This document shows, one piece after another, positions 11,615 through 63,852 of a DNA stretch of 64,000 bases. The notes under the pieces are model-generated. The model was not told the DNA's origin, did not search any database, and saw only the letters and a list, made by a program, of their open reading frames with translations. The stretch comes from a bacterium (GTDB lineage: Bacteria; Oederibacteriota; PGYV01). Position 1 is the first letter of the stretch; every line of letters starts with the position of its first letter. Where the stretch lies: positions 98,411 through 162,410 of the forward strand of contig JAKQNO010000071.1 in NCBI GenBank assembly GCA_029565735.1, read 5' to 3'. The position numbers were made by a program, and so were the translations under genes.

Positions 11615-14600
11615 TTTACCACCGCGATTTTTGTGCGGAAAGTATCCGCGTTGTTTATCTTAAGTATGCCGTAATATACTCCGCTTATTACGGTTGTGCC
11701 GTAATTATTTTTACCGTCCCATTCATATTTATACAGTACGCCGCCCGTCAGCGAATCCGCGGAAGCAAGCGTCCTTACCTTTCTGCCTGTGACGTCAAAT
11801 ATTTCAAGTTTTATCTCCGCGTCTTCAGGTAAAAAGAACTGAAGTGTGGTGGAACGCGTAAGCGGGCTGAACGGGTTTGGATAGTTGTAAAAACTTGTCT
11901 TTAAATCAGACCCTATGGTAAGTATTGAATCGGAAATATAAGGGTACTGCGCGCCGGAAGGTTCGCAGTAAAGCCTTGTCCCGTCAAGTTTTTCGAATAA
12001 TAAGGCAGCCTGGTTTTCTATTGAAATATTAAGCCTGCCCGCGGGCGCGCCGCTTAACACATCCATAAAGAATTCAAGGTTTATTGATGAAGCCGGCGAA
12101 ATAAGCCTGTCAACCGGCACAAATACGGTTTTGGACGCGCCCCACGCCGTTGATGTAATAAAGCCATCAGCATCGCTTATTATTATGTTTTCCACCGCGC
12201 GGTTATCCTGCGTGCTTATTGTAAGGGTTACGCCCGCAAGCCTGTATTCAGGGCCGCCCGCGTTGGGATTAATTGCCGTCAGCCCAAACAGCGGTATTCC
12301 GCGCGCGCCTTCCCTTACCGTGGCTATTTCATGTTTTATAAAATCTGTAAGCGCAAGGTTGCCGTACGCGCTGACAGTCACCGGTATCGCGTCAGTTACG
12401 GCGTTTGTGTAAACAAAGTTTCTGTCAACCGCGGTCACCGAGTAAAAAAGCCCGGGTTTTAAGAACCTTACCACAAACTGCGCCTCGCCCGGATCTAAAT
12501 CCTTGTCTGTGTCGCCAATTGTCCACTGAGGCTGCGATGATACCATTCCCGCAGTGACACCGGTTCCGGATACCATACTCCAGCTGTTCTGTTCCACCAT
12601 TCTTACGGTTATTGTAACCGGGCGGCCCGCTTCCTGGACGTCCGGAGCCCCCGTGTATCCCGGCGCGGAGGAGATAAACGACTGCCCCGGCGCTATTGCA
12701 ATAATTGATATCAAAGCTGTATTTGTGGGCGTAACCGTTGGGGTTGTTGACATTGTAACAGTCGGGGTTATGGTTTCAGTTACAGTCTGCGTATTTGTCT
12801 GCGTAATTGTCATTGTCACCGAAGAGGTCACTGTTTCCGTGACAGTCTGTGTTACTGTCATGGTCGCGGTTAATGTGGCGGTCTGCGTGACTGTCGGTGA
12901 TGCGGTTAATGTTGAAGTTGTTGTGAATGTGGGCGTGGCTGTTTGGGTCATTGTCTGTGTCACGGTTTGCGTGACAGTCTGCGTTGCTGTAAGCGTTGCC
13001 GAAGGCGTGGCTGTCTGTGTTATTGTCTGCGTTACAGTCCGCGTCGTTGTCTCTGTTACTGTCTGCGTCACGGTTTGTGTCACTGTCTGCGTTGCCGTCT
13101 GTGTGACTGTCTGCGTTGTTGTTTCAGTCACAGTCTGTGTTGCTGTCTGCGTTATTGTCTGCGTTGCTGTCTGTGTGGCTGTTTCTGTTATTGTCTGTGT
13201 TACTGTATTGGTAATTGTTTCTGTTATGGTCTGCGTAACGGTTTGTGTGACAGTCTGCGTTACAGTCTGTGTGTTTGTTTGTGTTATTGTTTCGGTTACT
13301 GTCTGTGTTGCACTCTGTGTGATTGTTTCTGTTGCTGTCTGCGTTATGGTTTCCGTCACTGTCTGTGTTGCTGTTTGTGTTATTGTTTCTGTTGCTGTCT
13401 GCGTTATGGTTTCTGTGACGGTCTGCGTTATGGTTTCTGTGGCAGTCTGCGTTATGGTTTCTGTTACTGTCCGAGTTATAGTTTCCGTCACGGTCTGTGT
13501 CATTGTTTCTGTCACTGTCTGCGTGGCAGTTTGGCTTATGGTCTGTGTTGCCGTTTCAGTCACAGTTTCTGTCACTGTCTGCGTCACGGTTTCGGTTACA
13601 GTCTGCGTTGCTGTCTGTGTTACTGTTGACGTGTGCACAAGCACTGACTGCGAATATCCCGACGGCGCAGACGCTGTTACTGCCGCACCCATTGCGTTTA
13701 ATTCCGCGGTAAACGCCTTTACCCCCGCGTCTGATACGGCGCTGAATTTTATTACGTCAAAGTTCGGGTCAGATAAAACATTCCATCCCGCGCCCGCGTA
13801 TATTACTTCCACGTCTGCCCCGTTCATTGAAGCAGAGGCGCCCGGATACGCTGTTGACAGCCCGCCTGTTACGCTGACTCCTGCCGGTATTTTTATAAGC
13901 ACGCTTGTTATTGGCCCTTCGTTTCTTGCGCTGATTCTGTATGTGTATCCTGTAAGCTGCCCGAACGCCGTATAATTGGGTTCTATATACCCGTAAGCAG
14001 AAGGTGTGAACGTGGATGTGGGAGTTGCTGTCTGCGTTATTGTCTGTGTTACGGTCTGCGTCGGGGTCTGCGTGATTGTTTCAGTTGCCGTCTGCGTTAT
14101 TGTTTCTGTTGCTGTACGGGTTATGGTTTCAGTTACGGTCTGCGTTGCCGTCTGTGTGATTGTTTCTGTGACCGTCTGTGTTGTACTCTGTGTTATTGTC
14201 TCTGTTGCTGTACGGGTTATGGTTTCAGTTGCTGTCTGCGTTGCAGTCTGTGTGATTGTTTCTGTTGCTGTCTGTGTAACGCTCTGTGTTATTGTCTCTG
14301 TTGCTGTGCGGGTTATGGTTTCAGTTACGGTCTGCGTTGCTGTCTGTGTGATTGTTTCTGTGACCGTCTGTGTTGCACTCTGTGTTATTGTCTCTGTTGC
14401 TGTACGGGTTATGGTTTCAGTTATGGTCTGCGTTGCTGTCTGTGTTACAGTCTGCGTCACAGTCTGCGTTGCCGTCCGTGTTACGGTTTCTGTGACGGTC
14501 TGCGTTGAGGTTTGCGTGACTGTCTGTGTGTTGGTTTGCGTCACTGTCTGCGTCACGGTTTCGGTTACAGTCTGAGTTGCTGTCTGTGTTACGGTTGACG

Positions 14601-20840: not shown

Positions 20841-20939
20841 AACCCCTCTAAAGTTTTTTGATGCAATAGGATTTTACTATTACCAAGCAAATGCTGTCAA
20901 GCAAATACCCAAATAAAACCAATTAAACATATTGCAAAG

Positions 20940-20983
20940 TTTTCTATAAATTTTCTATTGACTTTCTAACTGTTTTCTATTAC
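20940..20983 (+). promoter_or_regulatory. Four direct repeats at 11-bp period overlapping the predicted promoter of the LexA-methyltransferase gene
   Basis: TTTCTA starts at 20941, 20952, 20963, 20974. Predicted -35 TTGACT (20958-20963), 17-bp spacer, -10 TACATT (20981-20986). Confidence 0.75.
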
Positions 20984-21013
20984 ATTATTTAAAACAAAAC
21001 ACGGAGGGTGTTT

Positions 21014-22531
21014 ATGATAACCAATAAGCAAAAAAAGATAGTAGATTACATAAACGATTACACAACAAAACACAACTTTGCTCCTTCTTTAACTGAAATT
21101 TGCAAACACTGCAAAATGGCTTCCGTTTCAACCGCACACTATCATATTAACAAATTATATTCAGCCGGGATTTTAGAGAAACAAAATCATAAATCACGTT
21201 CTTTATACATAAACGAAACCGAAAAATTATTGACAATACCTATACTGGGAACTATTTCCGCAGGGCAACCTATTGAAGCAATTCAAAACACAGAAACAAT
21301 AGCAGTCCCTAAAAGTAAAATACCTGATAAGTGCACAGTTTATGCACTTAGAGTATCAGGCGAAAGTATGAAAGACGAAAATATTAACAATGGCGATATA
21401 GTATTAGTAAAAAAACAAAATTTTGCCGTTAATGGGGATAAAGTAATTGCGCTTTTAGGAGGTTATGAAGTTACATTAAAAAGGTATTTTAAAGAAAAGA
21501 GAGCCATACGATTACAACCAGCCAACAAAGACTATTCTCCTATAATATTAAAACAAAGTGATTATTTAACTATACAGGGTGTAGTTATAGATTTAATCAA
21601 AAATTTTAAAGTGTCCGAAGAAATAGAATTAATGAATCCTATTACTAAAACCGCACCTGCACCATCAAATAAAATAATATTAGGTGATGTAATTGAAGAA
21701 CTACGAAAATTGCCTGACAACCATTTTGATATAGTCATTATCGATCCTCCTTACAATATAGGAAAAAATTTTGGTAATAACAATGATAAAATGGAAATGA
21801 ACGACTACGTTGATTGGTTTAAAAAATGGTTTAGAGAAAGTATGCGGGTAATGAAACCAACAGGAACGCTATTCATATATGGCTTTAGTGAAATCTTAGC
21901 TCACCTTTCCGTAGAGATACATTACGAAAAAAGATGGTTAATTTGGCACTATACAAATAAAAATGTTGCTTCTTTGAACTTCTGGCAAAGAAGTCACGAA
22001 GCAATAATTTGTGTTTGGAAAAATAATCCTATTTTTAATCGTGACGATGTAAGAGAACCTTATACTGAAGGTTTTTTAAATGGCGCAGCAGGAAAAATAA
22101 GAAAAGGTACCAATGGAAGATTTAGCAGAAATGGCAAGGAAACAGTATATAACGCCCATGAGAATGGAGCATTACCTCGGGATGTGTTAAAAGTTCCTGC
22201 TTTAGCAGGTGGTGCCGGCATGGTTGAACGTTGGTTTTTATGTAAAACATGCGGAAATGTTTACGAACCCCGCTTATTACAAGACCATATTAATCACGAA
22301 ATAATAAAACACCCGACGCAAAAACCAATGGAATTAACAAGAAGACTTATTAAATCTTGCAAGCCCGAAGAAAAAGGTTCAGTTTTAATTCCATTTGCCG
22401 GCAGCGGATCAGAATGTGCTGTTGCAAAAGAACTTGGTCTTTCATATGTAGGTATAGAAATTAATCCAGATTATATTAAATTGGCAGAAAAAATGATTTT
22501 TCAAACAAATAAGAATTGTGTCTTATTTTAA
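21014..22531 (+). CDS. LexA-type autocleavable repressor fused to beta-class DNA methyltransferase
   Basis: ATG at 21014 follows GGAGGG (track start GTG 21008). N-terminal winged-HTH, ISAGQP cleavage site, RVSGESMKDENI (Ser) and EVTLKRYF (Lys) as in LexA; C-terminal IIDPPYNIG, HPTQKPMELTRRLI, PFAGSGSECAVAKELGLSYVGIEINPDY. Confidence 0.93.
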   Translation: MITNKQKKIVDYINDYTTKHNFAPSLTEICKHCKMASVSTAHYHINKLYSAGILEKQNHKSRSLYINETEKLLTIPILGTISAGQPIEAIQNTETIAVPKSKIPDKCTVYALRVSGESMKDENINNGDIVLVKKQNFAVNGDKVIALLGGYEVTLKRYFKEKRAIRLQPANKDYSPIILKQSDYLTIQGVVIDLIKNFKVSEEIELMNPITKTAPAPSNKIILGDVIEELRKLPDNHFDIVIIDPPYNIGKNFGNNNDKMEMNDYVDWFKKWFRESMRVMKPTGTLFIYGFSEILAHLSVEIHYEKRWLIWHYTNKNVASLNFWQRSHEAIICVWKNNPIFNRDDVREPYTEGFLNGAAGKIRKGTNGRFSRNGKETVYNAHENGALPRDVLKVPALAGGAGMVERWFLCKTCGNVYEPRLLQDHINHEIIKHPTQKPMELTRRLIKSCKPEEKGSVLIPFAGSGSECAVAKELGLSYVGIEINPDYIKLAEKMIFQTNKNCVLF

Positions 22532-23205
22532 ACATCTATCTCTTTCTTTTTAGAAATAAAAGGTTTCTTAGTGAATAACACAAAACCATTTTCTAGTCGT
22601 TTCAAATTCTTATTTTCTATAAATCTTTTATATGGTAATCTTAACTCCCCTTTCTTAGTCTTTGGATTTTCAAAATATTCTCCGGAGGGTACATCATATT
22701 TAAGTTCAATAAATTCCCCTTCAATACTTTTTCCTGACTTTTTTTCTTTTCGAACTTCTCTACTGAACGTTTGTTTTTTTATCTGATAATTTAATACCAC
22801 TCCTTTATAGTCAACTTTAAAATCTATACCTTTATGGTCTAACTCTTCTGACATTTCAACTGTATTTTTTCCAAAAACAGCTTCTGCTACATATCCAGCA
22901 TGAATTTGCGTGATTATACTTGCCCAAGTTCTATAAATTCTTGCTGGCAGACCCTTATAAAAACAGGTTTTACACATAGTTGTTTTTTCTCTAAACGCTT
23001 CTATTTCACTGCTATATTTTTCACTATATTTTTTATAAAATTCTTCAAAAGAAATATAAATTTTTTTATTCCAATAAACATCGTAAAGCAAAAATAAAGC
23101 CTGGATATTTTTTGGTAAATCCATTTCAACAATTTTTATATTTCTATACATTTCTCTATATTGCCTGAGATTTACTTTTTCAAGTAATTTTTCAAATTCT
23201 TCCAT
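22528..23205 (-). CDS. Probable type II restriction endonuclease (PD-(D/E)XK, MjaI-like by recollection)
   Basis: 225 aa from ATG 23205 after AGGAGG (track start 23280). GIDFKVDYKGVVLNYQIKKQTF fits D-x(n)-QxK; CKTCFYKGLPARIYRTWASIITQIHAGYVAEAVFG; convergent with a DNA methyltransferase. Confidence 0.7.
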   Translation of the reverse strand: MEEFEKLLEKVNLRQYREMYRNIKIVEMDLPKNIQALFLLYDVYWNKKIYISFEEFYKKYSEKYSSEIEAFREKTTMCKTCFYKGLPARIYRTWASIITQIHAGYVAEAVFGKNTVEMSEELDHKGIDFKVDYKGVVLNYQIKKQTFSREVRKEKKSGKSIEGEFIELKYDVPSGEYFENPKTKKGELRLPYKRFIENKNLKRLENGFVLFTKKPFISKKKEIDV

Positions 23206-23222
23206 TCGTAACCTCCTTGTAT

Positions 23223-23242
23223 AATAACCTTTGTTTGTTATT
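23223..23242. promoter_or_regulatory. Dyad upstream of the endonuclease gene
   Basis: AATAAC-N8-GTTATT, about 18 bp upstream of the endonuclease ATG. Confidence 0.35.
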
Positions 23243-23309
23243 GTATCTTTTATAAATAATTTAGCAAGTATTTTTAACATTCAATTCACTAATTCCTTCT
23301 GTTTTTTAA

Positions 23310-63738: not shown

Positions 63739-63796
63739 GTAAGGTATAGGCGGAAGGTCAGAGGCTTAGAAGATTGGATGGTCAGCAATTTCAAAA

Positions 63797-63852
63797 CCCT
63801 CCGACCCTCCGACCCTCCGACCTTCCGACCTTCCGACCCTCTGTCCCTCCAT
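63797..63852. repeat. 8-bp tandem repeat (7 units of CCCTCCGA-like)
   Basis: CCCTCCGA x3, CCTTCCGA x2, CCCTCTGT, CCCTCCAT. Confidence 0.9.

Follow-up and report, generated by a model that had tools for sequence, protein, structure and literature searches.

A TTTCTA direct-repeat array as a probable self-operator of a LexA-methyltransferase fusion in a restriction-modification module

Self-repressing type II methyltransferases are already known, as are LexA proteins that read direct repeats. The SsoII and Ecl18kI methyltransferases repress their own genes via an N-terminal helix-turn-helix (HTH), with operator and promoter overlapping each other (PMC3874152). The operator of alphaproteobacterial LexA is the direct repeat GTTC-N7-GTTC (PMC8565304), and another paper (PMC7739468) cites a study of Patescibacteria LexA (Sanchez-Osuna, Barbe and Erill, 2017, doi 10.1111/1462-2920.13826) alongside further LexA proteins with direct-repeat targets. 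Here we analyzed a stretch of 64,000 nt (the window) of contig JAKQNO010000071.1 from an Oederibacteriota bacterium, in which four direct repeats of TTTCTA precede a gene for a LexA-methyltransferase fusion. Given that the 11-bp repeat is a feature of the gene family and has a half-site that tracks residue 43 of the protein, the array is very probably the operator of the fusion on its own promoter, placed for repression.

The four copies are located on the + strand at 20941-20946, 20952-20957, 20963-20968 and 20974-20979, with a step of exactly 11 bp, upstream of the ATG of the fusion gene at 21014. Our re-scan agreed exactly with the positions, the steps and the 11-mers of the original prediction, and a promoter scan recovered the promoter proposed there (predicted as sigma-70-type, TTGACT-17-TACATT, 20958..20986, + strand, 9/12 matches), which is arranged alike in orthologues. 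Its -35 hexamer TTGACT is at 20958-20963 and its -10 hexamer TACATT at 20981-20986, separated by a spacer of 17 bp. Repeats 3 and 4 had been described as lying over or inside this spacer; indeed, repeat 3 overlaps the -35 hexamer by the first base of the repeat, and repeat 4 is within the spacer.

In the window, TTTCTA-N5-TTTCTA occurs only as the three pairs of the array, even when one mismatch is allowed. In the whole 2.47-Mb genome there are four such pairs, of which three are in the array and the fourth lies inside an unrelated open reading frame (ORF), at its 5' end. As a single hexamer, TTTCTA is no more frequent in the window than expected (41 observed vs 52 expected), so the unusual feature is the spacing and not the word. 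We also simulated the 173-bp intergenic region 20,000 times with a first-order Markov model, counting any 6-mer at 11-bp steps: a threefold array appeared in two runs and a fourfold array in none. The original prediction had named as a possible objection that the array might be equally common in AT-rich DNA, but both the genomic pairs and the simulations speak otherwise. Thus, although the intergenic region has a G+C of only 28%, a chance origin of the repeats is ruled out by the simulations, by the genome-wide rarity of the pairs and by the conservation of the repeat in 86 of 89 relatives described below, and its probability is practically nil. The window contains other short tandem periodicities, unrelated to the array, at 63796-63830 and 13058-13460 (8 bp, TCCGACC, and 12/24 bp, TGTCTGCGTT).

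To compare relatives, we collected 90 LexA-headed genes with upstream DNA, nearly all from Patescibacteria, of which 89 upstream regions are non-redundant. A repeat was called when a 7-mer recurred at a given distance, one mismatch being tolerated; all distances between 7 and 31 were compared, and shuffles served as background. A direct repeat of 11 bp, that is, two direct half-sites as in a direct-repeat LexA operator, was found in 86 of the 89 regions against 11.8 expected from shuffles, while all other distances were near background. The original prediction had seen no array upstream of the partner endonuclease gene, and this is also the case in our scan: the array is absent there in the window, and the 11-bp repeat occurs in 4/23 endonuclease upstream regions of relatives, which is background.

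Orthologues carry their pair between -35 and -10 (e.g., TTGACTTTCTATTTATTTTCTACTACAAT in L026), at the same place as half-sites 3 and 4 of the window (20963..20979, + strand), which we regard as the predicted core operator pair. Eighty relatives have their pair on the + strand, and in 45 of these the -10 hexamer begins 5-8 nt from where the second half-site begins. Half-sites 1 and 2 (20941..20957, + strand, exact matches in the same 11-bp register) form an extra pair immediately 5' of the -35 hexamer, without a counterpart at the same position in most relatives, which have a single pair. The conserved unit is a pair, and the window array is that pair plus the extra one, which probably strengthens binding. 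The window is the sole four-copy locus of the collected set; the nearest to it is L116 with three half-sites at 11-bp steps (TTTCGG, TTTCGT, TTTCGG).

LexA proteins are repressors. Because of this, and because the core pair sits in the core promoter, we infer repression by the fusion, which would physically bind there. The HTH-operator contact might instead activate transcription or recruit the methyltransferase to DNA without any repression, as might be imagined from a second pair in the 5' untranslated region, on the other strand, in some relatives. However, the pair is located between -35 and -10, and in most loci the -10 hexamer comes right after the second half-site, which is a position typical of repression; together with the repressor nature of LexA, this makes activation or recruitment quite unlikely.

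In 63 of the 90 loci, the operator is closely preceded by a perfect DnaA-box word (TTATCCACA on either strand), against a background of 0.02 per 160 bp; the word is mostly 10-11 or 19-24 bp ahead of the first half-site. It was found in loci from L025 to L126, for example about 100 bp ahead of the start codon in L028, and is absent from the window. This word is also enriched genome-wide relative to its reversed control.

With regard to the half-site, relatives carry TTTCTA, GTTCTA, TTTCGA, TTTCGG, TTTAGG and GCTCGG. Base 6 is A for all 53 proteins with Phe, Tyr or His at residue 43 and for none of the 33 proteins with Glu or Gln, so that the residue class predicts base 6 (A vs other) in 86/86 (counts 53/0/0/33). 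In a blind scan of 64 residues against 7 bases, this combination ranked first, and after collapse to 21 representatives the counts were 6/0/0/15. The half-site caller gave equal weight to A and G at base 6, so the relation was not created by the caller. Similarly, residue 36 (Ala or other) is related to base 5 (T or other) with counts of 33/1/6/46: Ala36 goes with T in 33 of 34, and other residues mostly with G. Moreover, pairs of proteins whose S24 domains are about 80% identical but whose HTHs differ have different operators, each fitting its head, which indicates that head and operator travel together. Mixed operators (TTTCGAT...TTTCTAT) were seen at L070, L084, L086, L091, L093 and L108, whose proteins have Ser36 and Phe43, and this suggests that Ser36 may tolerate G or T at base 5. 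In the AlphaFold model, residue 43 is contained in helix 38-50, the third helix of the winged HTH (predicted local distance difference test, pLDDT, about 85). In our alignment, Tyr43 of the window protein takes the position of Glu45 in Escherichia coli LexA, which we take to be a DNA-contacting residue. The self-operator proposed in the original prediction is thus supported by the 11-bp repeat of the relatives and by a half-site that follows recognition-helix residues. Such a tight residue-to-base relation (43 to base 6 and 36 to base 5) offers a code, open to experimental test, by which LexA-type winged helices would recognize DNA.

The fusion gene (21014..22531, + strand) was identified with Pfam and NCBIfam, and its start at ATG 21014 matches those of orthologues 60-64% identical. 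According to Pfam, the protein consists of a LexA_DNA_bind winged HTH (residues 2-62), Peptidase_S24 (76-192) and N6_N4_Mtase (239-493). Residues 2-198 match NCBIfam lexA TIGR00498 with 160.8 bits, exceeding the curated cut-off of 110.95, and possess what defines LexA, a winged HTH and an S24 domain with an Ala-Gly scissile bond and a Ser/Lys dyad. All 44 full-length fusions examined have the three domains, and the A83-G84 bond, S118 and K156 are unchanged in 44/44. In the methyltransferase part, DPPY (244-247) is ahead of FAGSG (461-465), which is the beta order. As this part was modelled poorly by AlphaFold (mean pLDDT 60.5), only the N-terminal 200 residues of the model were used; in a structure search the closest PDB entries were LexA, among them LexA-DNA and LexA-RecA complexes. 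Natural S24-less fusions of 371-399 amino acids (L034, L037, L038, L074) carry the LexA HTH directly on the methyltransferase and retain the operator.

These features suggest a simple scheme. Through its LexA winged helix, the fusion would bind the TTTCTA direct repeats, which follow each other at one helical turn (11 bp), and the protein on the core pair would exclude RNA polymerase, keeping methyltransferase expression low by negative autoregulation. RecA-stimulated self-cleavage at Ala83-Gly84 would then part the DNA-binding head from the S24-methyltransferase fragment, so that repression would be relieved by damage to DNA, self-restriction through the partner endonuclease included, and a burst of methyltransferase would follow. 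RecA-triggered self-cleavage is plausible given the invariant Ala83-Gly84, Ser118 and Lys156 and the RecA in all genomes tested (12/12, the host and 11 relatives), and we give this release step about an even chance. Accepting self-repression, the S24 domain may alternatively be only a scaffold for dimerization or folding, with no role for DNA damage. This is consistent with the natural S24-less forms, which retain HTH, methyltransferase and operator, and with recA not sharing the operator; on the other hand, a scaffold would not need the scissile Ala-Gly and the catalytic Ser and Lys that are invariant in the full-length fusions, and RecA is at hand in every genome tested. We regard the scaffold alternative as quite possible, if somewhat on the doubtful side.

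In the damage-release reading, cuts in under-methylated host DNA would activate RecA, the head would be cleaved, and methyltransferase would be made until the genome is protected. Tentatively, and with a probability just short of even, the module may thus be a restriction-modification (R-M) system with a built-in damage sensor, whose methyltransferase is its own SOS-type repressor and whose head is used across Patescibacteria with many endonucleases. If true, a methyltransferase that carries an entire LexA repressor, cleavable as it seems, would link the control of restriction to the DNA-damage signal within one polypeptide.

Some observations weigh against this interpretation as a whole. In a few loci the best pair is on the opposite strand or in the 5' untranslated region, and 4 of the 90 loci are under the scoring cut. 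Parsimony on an S24-domain tree gave 21 changes of residue class, 21 of base and 21 joint, but this is a rough, upper-end figure because the tree is weakly resolved and rests on a short domain, and the HTH may have moved together with the promoter in a single exchange. Moreover, the S24-less forms show that the damage-release step is dispensable for the system; they keep HTH and operator, which means that autoregulation can do without S24.

The original prediction also proposed a genome scan for TTTCTA-N5-TTTCTA upstream of recA and other SOS genes. This did not bear out a shared SOS box: the only host pair outside the array is the one in the ORF, and recA had no 11-bp array in 9/9 relatives with a readable recA upstream region, by which a shared box at recA was rejected. 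In twelve Patescibacteria genomes, further TTTCTA pairs are about as frequent as the reversed control pattern, and among those inspected a pair is embedded in a promoter only at the fusion gene itself. The host encodes two more LexA-like proteins, one adjoining a dinB-like polymerase gene and the other adjoining recA. A LexA would be expected to control an SOS regulon including recA, and we saw no sign of this for the array; in the host the array is at the fusion's own promoter only. Taken together, the lack of the array at recA, the control-level pairs and the host's own LexA proteins point to a predicted operator that is private, with the fusion regulating its own gene and not the SOS regulon. 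At the host lexA beside the dinB-like gene (L058, contig C118), a palindrome TTAGCACA-AA-TGTGCTAA was seen at a promoter-like site, and the interval between this lexA and its divergent gene is full of imperfect AAGCATAAGCGAATTAAGC / CGCTATAGCTTAATTGC-type repeats.

Some other regulator might bind the repeats, for instance a host LexA or a stand-alone C protein, since a small XRE-type HTH gene lies beside the endonuclease in some relatives and the host has the two additional LexA-like proteins. Against this, throughout the family the half-site tracks two residues of the fused HTH, 36 and 43, the XRE gene is absent from the island of the window with which the array arrived, and one host LexA promoter carries an unrelated palindrome. 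Binding by another regulator is very unlikely.

The partner gene (22528..23205, - strand) encodes a TaqI-family type II restriction endonuclease (PF09573 RE_TaqI, 6.6e-35; PADLOC REase_II), which adjoins the methyltransferase as in a type II R-M system. It is convergent with the fusion gene and their 3' ends overlap. Its start is likely at 23205, though a longer frame extends to 23280; homology in 22 relatives, in which the convergent partner is conserved, starts near residue 26 of the longer frame. Operator, fusion and endonuclease form a putative acquired island (20882..23305, no strand assigned), delimited by flank alignment and G+C. Two congeneric genomes align with the flanks (to 20881; from 23306/23317) without the 2.4-kb island, whose G+C is 0.27-0.33 vs 0.46-0.48 in the flanks. 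The fusion is present in 1 of 45 genomes of the host phylum, and its close relatives (60-64% identity, full length) are almost exclusively from Patescibacteria. In one Patescibacteria class, 62 of 387 genomes match at E <= 1e-52, mostly as fusions and in a few cases as LexA-length open frames. Congeners without the island, rarity in the host phylum and relatives in Patescibacteria indicate that the 2.4-kb module, operator included, was probably acquired from the direction of Patescibacteria. No record covering 80% of the fusion was found in annotated phage and plasmid collections.

Across the relatives, partners belong to TaqI, MamI, BsaWI, HindIII or other type II families, or match no family, and the methyltransferase parts also differ among the fusions. 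Thus, Patescibacteria R-M systems seem to use the LexA head as a general control module. The convergent endonucleases at L042, L043, L046 and L049 are of the MamI, BsaWI and HindIII families, and the partners at L028, L040, L070, L075, L080 and L084 have no match to a known family. A small XRE-type HTH gene, possibly for a C protein, is directly upstream of the endonuclease in L025 (3629-3847) and L026 (6219-6440), and not in the window.

M.TaqI is a gamma-type methyltransferase. The window system resembles TaqI R-M in that its endonuclease belongs to Pfam RE_TaqI, but its methyltransferase has the beta motif order. Like C-protein-controlled R-M systems, it would control transcription within the system; unlike them, the regulator is the methyltransferase itself, and the island contains only fusion and endonuclease without a separate C gene. 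The analogy with the alphaproteobacterial operator drawn in the original prediction holds in part. There is an 11-bp direct repeat over a promoter as the predicted target of a LexA winged helix, but the half-site of the window is TTTC-TA, not GTTC, and those of relatives include GTTCTA, TTTCGA, TTTCGG and GCTCGG, with GTTCTA as the second half-site in some. The predicted operator is also private to one gene without a regulon, and the repressor is fused to a methyltransferase. The 2017 study deals with LexA of the bacterial group of nearly all fusion relatives and is cited with direct-repeat motifs, so the 11-bp motif may already be reported. A LexA-methyltransferase fusion was not found in the literature searched, the 2017 study being outside its reach. 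Finally, the fusion is like SsoII and Ecl18kI in having an N-terminal HTH and a predicted operator on its own promoter. It differs from them in several respects: a LexA winged helix and an S24 peptidase take the place of the short HTH extension, the enzyme is a beta-type amino-methyltransferase (N6_N4_Mtase in 44/44 fusions) and not a 5-methylcytosine methyltransferase, the predicted operator is a direct repeat, and release may be triggered by damage.
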